A DNA stretch of 64,000 nucleotides from an uncultured Polaribacter sp. (GTDB taxonomy: Bacteria; Bacteroidota; Bacteroidia; Flavobacteriales; Flavobacteriaceae): contig OX044355.1 in the NCBI GenBank assembly GCA_943846595.1, positions 186,001 to 250,000 of the forward strand, read 5' to 3'. Below, one piece after another: positions 50,738 through 57,299 of the stretch. A model generated the notes under the pieces. It saw only the letters and a program-made list of their open reading frames with translations, had not been told where the DNA came from and searched no databases. Positions within the stretch are counted from its first letter, which is position 1; each line of letters starts with the position of its first letter. Made by a program: the position numbers and the translations under genes.

Positions 50738-53317
50738 ATGTCTACACTTCCAAAATTAGCGCGCTTTAACGAAAACGTGTTGTCTAGATACCAAATTTAC
50801 AACAGTATTTTCATGACACTTCCTTTCGACACGATCAGCAATACGGGCGTATTATTACCTCTATTTCATGCGGTTTGTGAAAAAGGATTTGCAGCAGGAA
50901 AGCATCCAACAGAGATTGTAGAGACCTTCTTTGAAAAGTACCAAGAAAACCCCTCTGAGAGCCAGAAAAAAGACTTGTTATTTCAATTTATTCAATACAT
51001 CGAACGTCAAGTAGTATTGTTTGATGCCATTGAAGATGCTTCCTTTCCAATCGTTAACAATATGGATGGTATTGGAACCCTTCGAAATTCGAAAGAAATT
51101 GCGTTTTCAAAAGACAAGAAAGAAGCCCTCCAAAAACATTTAGAAGATTTTAAAGTACGGATCGTTTTAACTGCTCATCCTACACAATTTTATCCTGGAG
51201 AGGTATTAGGAATCATTACAGATCTCGACAATGCCATACAAAATAACAACTTATTGTTAATCAAAGACTTGTTATCTCAGTTAGGAAAAACACCTTTCTT
51301 TAAAAAACAAAAACCAACTCCTTACGATGAGGCAGTTAGTCTTATTTGGTATTTAGAAAATGTTTTTTATCACTCGGTGAGCAAGATTCACAACTACATC
51401 GAAACCAATATTTTTGATGGTGAAAAAGTAGACAATCAGATCATTGATCTTGGTTTTTGGCCAGGAGGTGATCGCGATGGAAACCCTTTTGTAACTACCC
51501 AAATAACCTTAGATGTAGCAGAACGATTACGGCAATCTATCCTAAGAAACTATTACAGAGATATCAAACGTTTAAAAAGGCGTTTTACATTCAGTGGCGT
51601 ACAAGAAATCTTAGTCCGTTTAGAAAAAAGACTCTACAAACATGTGGTTCGTAGTTATGCCAACGTAAACTTTTCTCAAAAAATACTCTTAGATGAATTA
51701 GAAACTGCCAAAGAAATTGTCATCAACAAGCATCAATCCTTGTTTCTTGATGAGCTAAACGATGTGATTAATAAAATCCGTATTTTTGGTTTTCACTTTG
51801 CAACGCTCGATATACGACAAGACAGTCGCGTGCATCACAGTGCTTTCACCCAGCTAGTTAAAGATCTTTTGGCGAGTGGAGACACCACATTCCCAGAAGA
51901 TTATTTCAGCTTTTCAGAAAAAGAACAGCTTGCATTTTTAGCCACCGTCAAAGGAAAAATAGATCCAACTATTTTAACCGATGAAATGTCAGTAAAAACC
52001 ATCGAATCGATGTATGCAATTAAAACCGTCCAAGCTAGAAATGGTGAACGCGGGTCAAATCGATATATCATAAGTAATAATCAAACCGCTTTGCATGTAA
52101 TGCAAGCCTTTGCGATGCTTAATTTATGTGATTTTGAAGATTGCTTACCCGTAGATGTCATCCCACTTTTTGAAACCGTAGATGATTTACAGAATGCAGA
52201 GGAAGTCATGCGTACTATCTACACAAACCAGCATTATAGAGCCCATGTAGCACAACGTAAAAACAAACAAACCATCATGTTAGGTTTTTCTGACGGAACA
52301 AAAGATGGGGGTTATTTAATGGCAAATTGGGGGATTTTTAAAGCAAAAGAAGCATTAACAAAAATCTCACGTGAATTTGGAATTGAAGTTATTTTCTTTG
52401 ACGGTCGTGGAGGACCCCCTGCACGTGGAGGTGGAAAAACACATCAATTTTATGCCTCTTTAGGCCCTACGATTGAAGACAAAGAAATTCAATTAACCGT
52501 ACAAGGACAAACCATAAGTTCCAATTTTGGAACCTTAAACTCTTCGCAATACAACCTAGAACAATTATTGAGTTCTGGAATTAAAAATGAAGTGTTTACC
52601 AAGGATCAATTGAACGATGCGCACAGAAGCATTATCGATGATTTGGCTGCTACTAGCTATAAAGCTTATGTAGATTTTAAAAATCATCCACAATTTCTAC
52701 CCTATCTCGAAGAGATGAGTACCTTAAAATACTATGCGAAAACAAATATCGGTAGTCGACCAAGCAAACGATCTTCTTCAGCAACCTTAGATTTCTCTGC
52801 ACTAAGAGCCATTCCTTTTGTAGGAAGTTGGAGTCAATTGAAACAAAATGTTCCTGGTTTTTTTGGTGTTGGAACCGCATTGAAAAAGTACGAAGATGCC
52901 GACCGATTTGATGAAGTAGTCGCATTTTACAACGCCTCCGATTTCTTTAAAACTTTGCTCGAAAACAGCATGATGAGTTTGACAAAATCATTTTTCGGAT
53001 TGACCGCCTACATGGCAGAGGATCCTGTATATGGCGACTTTTGGAAACTGATTTTTGAAGAATACAATACCACAAAACGATTGCTATTAAAACTGTCTGG
53101 ACAAACTGAATTGATGGAGAATTTTCCAGAGGGAAAAGCGTCCATAGCTGTAAGAGAACATATTGTATTGCCACTTTTAACCATTCAGCAATATGCCTTA
53201 AAGAAAATTCAAGAACTTCAAAAAGAAACGGGCAACACCGAAGAACTTGCTGTTTTTGAAAAAATGGTTACGCGATCTTTGTTTGGAAATATCAATGCAA
53301 GTAGAAATTCGGCCTAG
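50738..53317 (+). CDS. ppc: Phosphoenolpyruvate carboxylase
   Basis: Anaplerotic enzyme forming oxaloacetate from PEP and bicarbonate. The 859-residue length fits the flavobacterial form. The catalytic motif VLTAHPTQ (about residue 147), the FWPGGDRDGNPFVT loop, LGFSDGTKDGG and FFDGRGGPPARGGGKTHQF are all intact, as is the C-terminal RSLFGNINASRN. It stands alone, between an AT-rich hairpin and a 40-bp palindrome. Confidence 0.95.
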   Translation: MSTLPKLARFNENVLSRYQIYNSIFMTLPFDTISNTGVLLPLFHAVCEKGFAAGKHPTEIVETFFEKYQENPSESQKKDLLFQFIQYIERQVVLFDAIEDASFPIVNNMDGIGTLRNSKEIAFSKDKKEALQKHLEDFKVRIVLTAHPTQFYPGEVLGIITDLDNAIQNNNLLLIKDLLSQLGKTPFFKKQKPTPYDEAVSLIWYLENVFYHSVSKIHNYIETNIFDGEKVDNQIIDLGFWPGGDRDGNPFVTTQITLDVAERLRQSILRNYYRDIKRLKRRFTFSGVQEILVRLEKRLYKHVVRSYANVNFSQKILLDELETAKEIVINKHQSLFLDELNDVINKIRIFGFHFATLDIRQDSRVHHSAFTQLVKDLLASGDTTFPEDYFSFSEKEQLAFLATVKGKIDPTILTDEMSVKTIESMYAIKTVQARNGERGSNRYIISNNQTALHVMQAFAMLNLCDFEDCLPVDVIPLFETVDDLQNAEEVMRTIYTNQHYRAHVAQRKNKQTIMLGFSDGTKDGGYLMANWGIFKAKEALTKISREFGIEVIFFDGRGGPPARGGGKTHQFYASLGPTIEDKEIQLTVQGQTISSNFGTLNSSQYNLEQLLSSGIKNEVFTKDQLNDAHRSIIDDLAATSYKAYVDFKNHPQFLPYLEEMSTLKYYAKTNIGSRPSKRSSSATLDFSALRAIPFVGSWSQLKQNVPGFFGVGTALKKYEDADRFDEVVAFYNASDFFKTLLENSMMSLTKSFFGLTAYMAEDPVYGDFWKLIFEEYNTTKRLLLKLSGQTELMENFPEGKASIAVREHIVLPLLTIQQYALKKIQELQKETGNTEELAVFEKMVTRSLFGNINASRNSA

Positions 53318-53368: not shown

Positions 53369-53408
53369 AGGTACTAAAAAATATACATATGTATATTTTT
53401 TAGTACCT
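53369..53408. repeat. 40-bp perfect palindrome between ppc and comM
   Basis: Perfect inverted repeat with centre between 53388 and 53389. It starts 51 bases after the ppc stop and ends 13 bases before the comM start. It has an A-run on the left arm and a T-run on the right, so it can end ppc transcription. Its position right at the comM ribosome-binding region means it could also affect comM expression. Confidence 0.7.
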
Positions 53409-53421
53409 TTAAAGAAAAAAC

Positions 53422-54285
53422 ATGCTTGTTAAGGTCTATGGCTCGGCTGTTTTCGGCATTGAAGCTACTACAATTACTGTTGAAGTAAACATTGATAAAG
53501 GCATTGGGTATCATTTGGTAGGCTTGCCAGACAATGCGGTGAGAGAAAGCTCCTTTCGAATTTCGGCTGCACTCAACAATAATAGCTACAAACTTCCTGG
53601 TAAAAAGATCATTATCAATATGGCGCCTGCCGATATTCGGAAAGAAGGCGCGGCTTATGATCTAACACTGGCGGTTGGAATTTTGGCTGCCTCCCATCAA
53701 ATAAAATCAGACACTATAAATGACTATATCATCATGGGTGAGCTTTCTTTGGACGGAAGTTTGCAGCCCATAAGAGGTGTTTTGCCCATGGCCATCAAAG
53801 CCAAAGAGGAAGGGTTTAAATACTTTATGGTACCCAAAGCCAATGCCAAAGAGGCCACAATTGTTGATGATTTAACTATTTTAGGGGTGAGTCATATTAT
53901 GGAGGTCATCCAGCATTTTAACGGCGACAAAAAAATGGAGCCTACCCTTGTAGATACCCGAGCCGAATTTTATAAAAACATTGATTTTCCTGAGTTTGAT
54001 TTTTCAGATGTAAAAGGGCAAGAATCCATCAAACGCTGTATGGAAATTGCGGCAGCTGGCGGACATAATATTATCCTCATTGGCCCACCGGGATCTGGAA
54101 AAACCATGTTGGCAAAACGGTTGCCATCCATCCTCCCTCCCATGTCCCTTAATGAAGCCTTAGAAACCACAAAAATCCATTCCGTAATTGGTAACACCAA
54201 AAATGAAGGACTTCTTTATCAGCGGCCTTTTCGAAATCCTCACCATACCATTTTCAATGTAATAGTATATAATGTAGTTTTATAA
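53422..54285 (+). pseudogene. comM: ComM/YifB Mg-chelatase-like ATPase, 3' half missing
   Basis: ComM is a ring helicase that helps branch migration during natural transformation. Full-length proteins have about 510 residues; this one stops after 287. The N-terminal LonC-like domain (VFGIEATTITVEV, INMAPADIRKEG) and the start of the AAA+ domain with Walker A GPPGSGKTMLAKRLP are present. The match ends at RPFRNPHHTI (residue 277, codon 54250-54252), where SDVALVGGG is expected, and continues with about ten unrelated residues. The Walker B, sensor and C-terminal parts are absent, so it should be inactive. AT-rich DNA follows. Confidence 0.85.
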
Positions 54286-54295
54286 ATTAATATAT

Positions 54296-54365
54296 GTATC
54301 TCTCTCTTTATATCCATTTATCTATTTCTTTATCTCTCTATTTCTTTATGTATCTATCTATTTAT
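54296..54365. repeat. Low-complexity ATCT/TTTC-like tract
   Basis: An imperfect pyrimidine-rich short-repeat tract built from units like TATC, TCTC and TTTC, placed just after the comM break. The remaining noncoding DNA to 54601 (about 235 bases) is AT-rich with no recognisable gene or -7 box except the hairpin at 54542. Confidence 0.6.
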
Positions 54366-54541
54366 GGTTGAACCCTCGCTATAATAAAAATACCTAACCA
54401 TCAATAAGTTAAGTGCTTTTACTACTGTATTTTTTACATTTTTTTTAATGCTTTACTAACTTTATATGTATAAAAACGAGAGAATAGACACTAATCAAAT
54501 GCCAACAGAGTTTCAGATTGAGATTATACAATAAAAGAAAA

Positions 54542-54561
54542 CCCCTACATTTCTGTAAGGG
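54542..54561 (-). terminator. Terminator of the island lipoprotein gene
   Basis: On the minus strand CCCTTACA pairs with TGTAGGGG (one mismatch) around a 4-base loop, followed by TTTTCTTTTATT. It lies 40 bases after the stop of the 98-residue lipoprotein gene. Confidence 0.55.
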
Positions 54562-54601
54562 TATTTATATTGTTTTATTTTAATATGCTTTGAATCTAAC
54601 T

Positions 54602-54898
54602 TTAATCTCTGCAAGGAGAATTCTTGTAATCAAGAATCTGGTCGCCATTTACAGCACTTCCAGTTCTCCAGCTAATATACCTTATATAGTATTTTCTTTT
54701 ACCTATTTCTGTAAACTCAATTATATCTCTATCCATTTGTTTCATTTTAGACTCTATAAAACTTTTATCGCCATAACCATTACAGTCATTTGTTCTTTTT
54801 TTTCTTTCAGTTGAACTGTTAATGCTTTTAGTTCTGTTTTCACAGTTTATCAATAAAAGTGAGAATGTAAATATTAATAAAATCTGTTTAATTTTCAT
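54602..54898 (-). CDS. Small lipoprotein of unknown function
   Basis: A 98-residue protein with a classical lipoprotein signal: KIKQILLIFTFSLLLINC, acyl-accepting Cys19. The mature part is hydrophilic, with two more cysteines (in NDCNGYG and at the end in NSPCRD) that could form a disulfide, and a YYIRYISWRTGSAVNGD segment. I do not recognise a family. It is the second gene of a minus-strand pair in the AT-rich island behind the broken comM gene. Confidence 0.6.
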   Translation of the reverse strand: MKIKQILLIFTFSLLLINCENRTKSINSSTERKKRTNDCNGYGDKSFIESKMKQMDRDIIEFTEIGKRKYYIRYISWRTGSAVNGDQILDYKNSPCRD

Positions 54899-54976
54899 TT
54901 TTTCTGATTTTAAATGTTAATATGAAATAGTTCCTTATTGAGTTTTAATTTGAGATAATAGTTTGATTTTTAAATT

Positions 54977-55438
54977 CTAAATCAACATTTCTAATCCTCC
55001 TCCAAAGAAGAACCAAATTATTATAACAAAGAATATTAAATAAAAAATCATATTCTTAGTCTGACCTTTTTTCAAGTTTTTTATGTCTTCTTCTGTTATT
55101 TTATATCCTTCCAAACATTTTACTAAAAAAGTCATAAACTCATCTAAATTTTTCTTGGCATATAAATTACTATCATCATTTGTCATTCCTCCAGTAAATT
55201 TTGAAACTTCAATTTCAAAAGTTGTAGAGTCTCCCTCTGACTCTTGAAACCTAATATCTAAATGTTGAGGTTGAAAAGCTCTTGTAACTTGAATACGAAT
55301 TGAATTTAAGGTCTTATTATTGTCTAATAACTTATAAGTAGGAAGTTTTTCCGCGATATATATTATGATATTTTCAATTTCATTTCGTGTAAATTTTAAA
55401 GTGTAAGTTTGCCTTGGTGTTGGTATTGCATTGCTCAT
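54977..55438 (-). CDS. Tail-anchored protein of unknown function
   Basis: A 153-residue protein. The first 125 residues are soluble and mixed alpha/beta (YTLKFTRNEIENIIIYIAEKL, FQPQHLDIRFQESEGDST), and a single C-terminal hydrophobic helix (about 131-150, YLIFFVIIIWFFFGGGLEML) would anchor it with the N-domain in the cytoplasm. There is no N-terminal signal. I do not recognise the family. The lipoprotein gene follows 78 bases downstream on the same strand; together they fill the island. Confidence 0.6.
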   Translation of the reverse strand: MSNAIPTPRQTYTLKFTRNEIENIIIYIAEKLPTYKLLDNNKTLNSIRIQVTRAFQPQHLDIRFQESEGDSTTFEIEVSKFTGGMTNDDSNLYAKKNLDEFMTFLVKCLEGYKITEEDIKNLKKGQTKNMIFYLIFFVIIIWFFFGGGLEMLI

Positions 55439-55908
55439 AATTATGGTTTTTTTTCAATATATAAAAATATAACCAACCAACCAAAGTTAACTATATGAAT
55501 ATTAGTATTCAAACTAAATACTACACCTCAACTATATTCATTCTAAATCAAACACTTACATAATAATTGTAATAGTATAACTATATATAATTAATAAGGA
55601 TTAACCATTTTACTAATTCCTAAACCCTTACTAGTATTGCGTTTAGAAGAGGTGTATTTACCACAAAAACCACTTACCCATTTTACTAAAGTTATTTAGT
55701 TTAAAAGAAATATTGTCTATAAATAATGGAAGATTATATAGTGGTTGTGACTCAAGATTATTCTTGGCTTTTTATATGTTTTATCATCATTTCTAACTAT
55801 TTTCTAGAGCGGTCATCTCTCGTTTGTGCATATCAAGTGCTTTTTTTAGGAAAGATAGTGAAAATTGAGTGATTTTTTAAAAGCAATGAATAAGCAGTAA
55901 TAAAGACA
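55439..55908. other. AT-rich intergenic region, no supported gene
   Basis: About 470 bases without a convincing gene. It begins with CCAACCAACCAA direct repeats upstream of the tail-anchored gene. A 48-codon plus-strand frame (55726-55872) with one hydrophobic stretch is the only open frame of note; it lacks a promoter box and I do not call it. The right end is the ahcY terminator, so the junction of the island probably lies here. Confidence 0.5.
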
Positions 55909-55942
55909 AAAAAAACCTCACAATTTTTTGTAAGGTTTTTTT
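55909..55942 (-). terminator. Intrinsic terminator of ahcY
   Basis: CCTCACAA (55916-55923) pairs with TTGTAAGG (55928-55935), one mismatch, flanked by an A-run and a T-run, 50 bases after the ahcY stop on the minus strand. Confidence 0.7.
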
Positions 55943-55991
55943 GAGTAGTAAGTAGGCAATCCTTTGAACTAGAAGTACAGAAAATAAATTT

Positions 55992-57299
55992 CTAGTATCT
56001 ATAGTGTTCTGGTTTAAAAGGTCCTGCTTGAGTAACTCCAATATATTCTGCTTGATCTTGACGCAATTCTGTCAACTCAACACCAATTTTTGCCAAGTGT
56101 AAAAAGGCTACTTTCTCATCCAAATGTTTTGGCAACATATATACTTCGTTTTTGTAGGCTTTCGCGTTGTTCCAAAGTTCTATTTGTGCTAATGTTTGGT
56201 TAGTAAATGAATTGGACATTACAAAACTAGGGTGTCCCGTAGCACAACCTAAATTAACCAAACGCCCTTCTGCTAATAAGATAATATCGTTTCCATTGAT
56301 ATTGTATTTGTCAACTTGTGGTTTGATTTCAACTTTCTCGCTATTTGCATTTAAATAAGGAACATCAATTTCATTATCAAAATGACCAATATTGGCAATA
56401 ATTACCTTGTCTTTCATCGCTTCAAAATGTTCTCCGCGAACGATGTCTTTATTTCCAGTAGTAGTAATTATAATGTCCGAATTTCCAACAACTGTTTCCA
56501 ATCTCTTTACTTCAAATCCGTCCATGGCCGCTTGTAAGGCACAAATAGGATCGATTTCTGTAATAGTAACGATAGAACCAGCACCTTTAAAAGAAGCCGC
56601 AGTACCTTTACCTACGTCACCATATCCACATACTGTTACCCTTTTTCCTGCCAACATGATATCAGTTGCTCTCCGAATGGCATCAACCGCAGATTCTTTA
56701 CAACCGTATTTATTATCAAATTTCGATTTTGTTACCGAGTCATTGATATTGATTGCTGGGATTGGCAATGTTCCGTTTTTAACACGTTCGTATAATCTGT
56801 GAACTCCCGTAGTCGTTTCTTCAGACAATCCATTGATCCCTTCCGCCAACTCTGGAAAACGATCCAAGACCATATTAGTTAAATCACCACCATCATCCAA
56901 AATCATATTCAATGGTTTTTTGTCTTCACCAAAAAATAAAGTTTGTTCAATACACCAATCAAATTCTTCTTCGTTCATCCCTTTCCAAGCATAAACTGAC
57001 GTTCCTGTTGCTGCAATCGCAGCAGCAGCTTGATCTTGTGTCGAAAAAATATTACAAGAACTCCAAGTAACTTCCGCGCCTAAAGCTTGTAAAGTTTCGA
57101 TTAAAATCGCTGTTTGAATGGTCATGTGTAAACACCCTGCAATTCTTGCCCCTTTTAAAGGCTGGGAGTCTCTATACTCTTCTCTCAAACTCATTAATCC
57201 TGGCATTTCTGCTTCTGCCAAATCCATTTCTTTTCTTCCCCAATCTGCTAAAGAAATATCCTTAACTTTGAAGGGAACGTACGCTGTGGTTGCACTCAT
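55992..57299 (-). CDS. ahcY: Adenosylhomocysteinase
   Basis: NAD-dependent enzyme splitting S-adenosylhomocysteine into adenosine and homocysteine, which relieves inhibition of the SAM methyltransferases (several are in this window). The 435-residue protein has [20 protein letters not shown], the NAD-binding [37 protein letters not shown] and the C-terminal PFKPEHYRY. It is divergent from the phosphopantetheinyl transferase gene, and the promoters of the two overlap. Confidence 0.96.

Follow-up and report, generated by a model that had tools for sequence, protein, structure and literature searches.

Loss of the 3′ half of comM in an uncultured Polaribacter sp., most likely a casualty of mobile DNA

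The comM gene has already been described as a target of mobile elements (PMC10083194, PMC10293859). Of the predicted site-specific integrases, 12.4% target the magnesium chelatase/ATP-dependent protease gene, and integrase targets are enriched in DNA competence genes (PMC10083194). By annotation, the large serine recombinase elements of that study have the same target gene as the locus described here. The prophage WO variant sr1WO, which has a serine recombinase, interrupts a magnesium chelatase gene in Wolbachia, and in strains with rearrangements each prophage fragment keeps part of this gene (PMC9203015). Tn6022 and the Tsy elements likewise insert into comM and disrupt it (PMC10293859). 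In the available text of a further paper (PMC8649781) we found no mention of comM.

The window analysed here comprises 64,000 nucleotides of the genome of an uncultured Polaribacter sp. (G000), a single contig of 2,314,258 bases that is rated 98.7% complete. Codons 1–280 of comM/yifB occupy positions 53422..54261 of the + strand, encode the S16-like N-terminal domain and Walker A, and contain no stop or frameshift. They are followed by a foreign tail of seven codons and a stop (54262..54285, + strand), giving an ORF (53422–54285) of 287 amino acids. The TIGR00368 profile matches this ORF over positions 1–273 of 499 with 330 bits, against a family cut-off of 362.4 bits, and Pfam identifies ChlI and the first 85 of the 207 positions of Mg_chelatase. 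The remnant thus falls short of an intact ComM/YifB, with a score below the cut-off and without Walker B and the C-terminal domain; because these two are lost, it should, judging from its sequence, have no ComM helicase activity. A search of the whole of G000 with the C-terminal half of comM (query from G001) gave no match at an E-value of 0.001, and TIGR00368, run across G000 at E-values up to 1, matched positions 1–273 at the window locus and elsewhere gave only eight matches, each of at most 29 bits.

The nearest relative was chosen by AhcY identity (19 genomes compared, 17 matched), which to G000 is 98% for G095 and 97% for G125, G084 and G019. The gene order in G095 is ppc, comM (511 codons), a gene which we take to be of the DUF1569 type, three small ORFs and ahcY. 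Over residues 1–280 the remnant is 95% identical to the intact ComM of G095; the DNA identity ends together with codon 280, at 54261, and foreign DNA begins at 54262. Relative to G095, 1,129 bases, comprising the 3′ end of comM and most of the DUF1569-type gene, are swapped for 1,528 bases. The lost portion of comM, codons 281–511, amounts to 231 of the 511 codons (45%) and includes Walker B and the C-terminal domain, and the GC content falls from 0.43 at 53750–54249 to about 0.25 past the junction. The alignment to G095 picks up again at 55790, within the 5′ end of the DUF1569-type gene, of which all but a 5′ remnant has been replaced (55790..55873, − strand, the end being approximate, from BLAST and alignment to G095, G125, G084 and G019); stop codons follow this remnant. 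The right flank is in the ancestral order, with ahcY (adenosylhomocysteinase) in its ancestral position at 55992..57299 on the − strand, and the left neighbour, ppc (phosphoenolpyruvate carboxylase; Pfam PEPcase; 50738..53317, + strand), has the same position in G095, G084 and G125. A 40-base perfect inverted repeat at 53369–53408, between ppc and comM, is largely kept in G095 and is probably the hairpin terminator of ppc.

A preliminary description of this locus had claimed that comM is cut off after Walker A, and the partial TIGR00368 and Pfam matches and the alignment to G095 bear this out. It had placed the end of the match at residue 277; the truncation stands but the exact end does not, as identity to G095 runs three codons further, to codon 280. 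Its estimate that about 45% of the protein is missing, Walker B and the C-terminal domain included, agrees with the codon count from G095, and its remark on unrelated AT-rich DNA agrees with the fall in GC content. The missing half, reported there as not found in the window, was not found in the whole 2.31 Mb genome either by the C-half and TIGR00368 searches. Of the two checks that it proposed, the genome-wide search for the 3′ half found none in G000, and the comparison with relatives showed an intact comM in G095, the 3′ end of which the foreign segment replaces. The breakpoint placed near 54253–54262 is correct to a few bases; described as a deletion or an insertion, it proved to be both, with foreign DNA gained from 54262 and codons 281–511 and most of the next gene gone relative to G095.

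Among five small related genomes (G000, G095, G125, G084 and G019), intact comM was seen only in G095. G125 is without comM, the next ORF lying 8 bases from the ppc stop; G084 has a 90-amino-acid ORF between ppc and the DUF1569-type gene; and G019 has comM divided between two contig ends (codons 268 and 279), so that the gene may or may not be broken. The dN/dS of the N-terminal half of comM to G095 is 0.065, compared with 0.040 for ppc, 0.022 for ahcY and 0.056 for comM between G095 and G019. About 9.5 nonsynonymous changes fall on the G000 branch and 10 on the G095 branch, by a rough calculation that uses three pairwise counts (over 276 codons in one case and 268 in the other two), and private changes at otherwise invariant columns number three in G000, one in G095 and up to four in other sequences (among 40). 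The N-terminal half thus shows no clear decay, so that either the event is recent or this half is still under constraint.

For a survey of comM, 146 genomes were drawn from the larger genus, which holds Polaribacter and some Tenacibaculum, and comM was taken as intact when one match covered at least 490 of the 511 residues. Among the matches listed, comM was intact in 114 genomes, incomplete in 15 and without a match in 17, four of which reach a completeness of 90% or more with contamination of no more than 5%. A comM match is absent in G084, G093, G125 and G010, each rated at least 90% complete. Loss of the 3′ half was found in one of the 15 incomplete genomes, G000 itself. An insert splits comM on one contig in six genomes (G002, G011, G022, G064, G119 and G132). 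In the others, comM is in two pieces at contig ends (G019 and G117), is broken into several fragments that are spread over more than one contig (G086), is interrupted by the end of a contig (G097), is frameshifted by match coordinates (G035 and G127) or, among the matches listed, gives a weak match only (G074). G031 was rejected as a broken comM, its gap being a run of N; G031, G035, G127, G019, G117, G097 and G086 were not counted as insertions. Of 80 named loci fetched by the N-terminal half, 73 carry a full-length comM, and some of the other seven are survey genomes; one contig (L198) ends at comM codon 280.

Vestiges of comM were also observed apart from the main gene. Codons 1–61 or 1–75 lie 3–5 kb upstream of the main comM in G126 (L133), G075 (L134) and G119 (L130), as though elements inserting at this place had made comM whole again with a 5′ part of their own. 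Vestigial 3′ ends, from codon ~444–476 onward, lie downstream of the full-length gene in G015 (L058), G108 (L136) and Croceitalea (L226, L228 and L231), and G004 has one on a separate contig. For L230 and L233, it is the match to comM itself that ends at 475–477. The 3′ vestiges and these stops suggest a further insertion site.

Focusing on the crossover sites, a large serine recombinase is present in four of the six inserts (G002, G011, G064 and G119). The two comM junctions overlap in AAT, codon 279, for the G119 insert and in GAT, also codon 279, for the G064 insert, and the recombinases of both contain Resolvase, Recombinase and Zn-ribbon domains. The overlap for the G011 insert, which carries a 497-amino-acid serine recombinase, is inferred as AT at codons 277/278, and the G002 insert crosses near codon 235. 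The recombinases of G011 and G002 are 45% identical, and those of G064 and G119 about 24%. In G000 the break falls at AAT of codon 279, with the comM match running on through GTA of codon 280, and its left junction is thus the crossover codon of the G064 and G119 inserts. A random break would fall within 3 bases of codon 279 in about 0.5% of cases, by rough, after-the-fact arithmetic. Inverted attP arms are visible by eye in G119, G064, G011 and G002, and one possible arm is left in G000; in the G000 stretches searched, no inverted partner of this left arm was found, as up to 8 mismatches of 25 gave 32 matches besides the two known copies, against 32 in a reversed control.

Sequence of the comM C-terminal half was found in 57 viral contigs, and the junctions of nine were inspected. 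A recombinase-like ORF lies right beside comM codon 278–279 in L250 and L269 (confirmed by Pfam for L269) and beside codon 215 in L249. The comM match stops at codon 349 in eight of the 57 viral loci (L278–L281, L283, L284, L286 and L287), pointing to codon 349 as another common attachment site in other hosts.

Because the break coincides with crossover codon 279, we favour, with some reserve, the reading that mobile DNA entered at an attachment hotspot and that the 3′ side was later deleted. The recombinase-like ORFs of L250 and L269, the contig ends at comM codon 280 (L198) and at codons 268 and 279 (G019), and the ancestral order of the right flank also speak for it. The mobile DNA would have entered by site-specific recombination at codon 279, the apparent attachment site for two large serine recombinases only distantly similar to each other (those of G064 and G119, ~24%), and a later deletion would have removed the recombinase of the element, its right end, the 3′ half of comM and part of the DUF1569-type gene. 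The 1.5 kb remnant holds no recombinase, its 98- and 153-amino-acid ORFs giving no Pfam match, and the PF07508 matches in G000 lie at 689–694 and 766 kb, away from comM. Neither a right junction with the rest of comM nor a right-hand att site was found in G000, where the genome-wide searches did not find the 3′ half. These absences and that of an inverted partner of the left arm in the stretches searched count against entry at an att site. So do the N-terminal half, with its lack of clear decay, the viral contigs, five of the nine inspected showing no recombinase match at the comM junction and L272 having its recombinase beyond codon 349 and not at codon 277, and a 6-base microhomology (AATGTA) with a repeat elsewhere, which is also expected from plain illegitimate recombination. 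Since no recombinase or right-hand att site survives, microhomology-mediated replacement stays a live rival.

This rival would be a one-step illegitimate replacement in which lipoprotein-island DNA, from G000 or a related strain, was joined to comM at AATGTA and, on its other side, recombined within the DUF1569-type gene; agreement with a recombinase site would then be coincidental. The 1,528-base foreign segment is AT-rich, with two orphan ORFs and with end repeats that recur in other islands of G000. Codons 279–280 (AATGTA; 54256..54261, + strand) are common to comM and to repeat A (54256..54566), which has 311 bases and is 97% identical to G000:C1:754417–754727 (−); the match to this 754 kb copy starts exactly at AATGTA, which the intact comM of G095 natively has. 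A third copy at 1298449–1298738 (+) is about 90% identical from 54286, its match starting 30 bases further in. Across the genus, repeat A was matched in 15 of the 146 genomes at an E-value of 1e-4, over most of its length only in G000 and G074. Repeat B (55521..55683) is 79% identical to G000:C1:1293876–1294037 (−), and its part 55523–55589 is 94% identical to 754977–755043 (−). The recurrence of both repeats in other islands and the lack of a recombinase in the remnant are as an illegitimate replacement would leave them, but its breakpoint would have to hit by chance the very triplet, codon 279, at which two other inserts cross over, and we regard it as possible but rather unlikely.

The segment carries, between its repeats, a 98-amino-acid ORF (54602..54898, − strand), a putative lipoprotein by eye that has no family in Pfam, NCBIfam, PHROGs or PADLOC, and a 153-amino-acid orphan ORF (54977..55438, − strand), which has one match in G000, is matched in one of the 146 genus genomes, its own, and has no Pfam or NCBIfam family. 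A phage, plasmid or defence origin of these ORFs was rejected, as there was no PHROGs match (best E-value 0.082, for the 153-amino-acid ORF) and none in PADLOC. The 153-amino-acid ORF gave no match in INPHARED (tblastn) or IMG/VR, the 98-amino-acid ORF gave none in PLSDB (tblastn), and Rfam gave no family at gathering score on 53900–56100.

At 754, 911 and 1298 kb, whole or partial copies of repeat A follow arrays of small genes that by eye are lipoprotein-like. In the G000 islands (C1:753000–773000, 903000–917500 and 1298000–1302000; L084–L087), small lipoprotein-like genes are separated by repeated terminator-like spacers, and their signal peptides are nearly identical (MRIKQILVAFLFTALVISCGN..., MKTLKRSITVLVCLILF...) but their mature parts differ; a serine recombinase is present in the first island (753–773 kb) and integrase fragments in the second (903–917 kb). 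Repeat B holds TGTAATAGTATAA at 55568, which directly repeats the A end (at 54258) with a single mismatch, and at 754 kb the A and B ends are in reverse order, as a head-to-tail junction would give. The two TGTAATAGTATAW direct repeats enclose 1.3 kb (A, the 98-amino-acid ORF, the 153-amino-acid ORF and B) that might be a small non-autonomous mobile cassette, a reading which we consider doubtful. The repeat pattern, at up to one mismatch, gave 23 matches (three exact) against 13 in a reversed control, and many one-mismatch matches must therefore be chance. The 12-base repeat was rejected as a tyrosine-recombinase core in comM because intact comM shares TGTA only. An integron or tyrosine-recombinase cassette array was also rejected: G000 has nine PF00589 matches, none of them in the window or in the 753–773 or 1298–1302 kb islands, and the two in the 903–917 kb island are fragments. 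If the cassette reading were true, other elements would provide the recombinases by which such lipoprotein-gene cassettes spread through flavobacterial genomes, and comM codon 279 would be one of their entry sites.

A functional short ComM, limited to the S16-like domain and Walker A, is very improbable. The N-terminal half has no stops, frameshifts or clear rate increase, and N-halves of 277–297 amino acids stay open in G011, G064 and G119, but Walker B is absent, and each of these N-halves of similar length arises from a separate insertion, is followed by different DNA and lies 6.9–46.5 kb from the C-half. A short form conserved in relatives, which the preliminary description had named as evidence against a truncation, was not found, comM being full-length in 114 of the 146 genomes among the matches listed. 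Misassembly, in which repeat A made the assembler join comM to the wrong place, deserves still less credence: repeat A does start at the junction and is nearly identical to its 754 kb copy, but the DUF1569-type remnant and ahcY are back 1.5 kb later in the right orientation, both flanks keep their gene order, the 153-amino-acid ORF has a single match in the genome and the 3′ half of comM was not found in a genome of such completeness. Least credible of all is a Tn7-like transposon that inserted and then decayed, since, although such transposons split comM in two of the 146 genomes (G132 with TnsA, TnsB, TnsC/TniB and TniQ all present, and G022 with TnsA, a TnsB-like protein and TniQ, TnsC not having been scanned), with comM absent from codon ~115 (G022) or ~85 (G132) to ~280–285 and right junctions thus close to the G000 break, their left junctions are not at codon 279, and the remnant ORFs contain no Tns domain and show no similar end by eye.

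The truncation of comM is most likely real and a rather ordinary instance of damage by mobile DNA. The comM gene is a repeatedly struck attachment gene in Polaribacter and its relatives; in it, distantly related serine recombinases converge on codons 277–279 and Tn7-like elements use other positions. A role of comM in natural transformation has been reported for other bacteria; if comM serves this process here, mobile DNA switches off DNA uptake again and again.

Close counterparts of the G000 locus are the G064, G119 and G011 inserts, which occur in the same genus and at the same or an adjacent comM codon, but in which both halves of comM and the recombinase are still present. Wolbachia belongs to a different phylum from the present host. 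The sr1WO variant differs from the G000 segment in that the WO prophage is still recognisable (PMC9203015). Tn6022 and the Tsy elements differ in using TnsF (PMC10293859); the Walker B motif, at which TnsF binds, is in the part that is missing from G000 comM. Compared with the large serine recombinase elements (PMC10083194), the G000 locus retains neither a recombinase nor a second att site and is at most a scar. The comM gene of G000 is most likely a further case of the known targeting of comM, of which only a scar is left.
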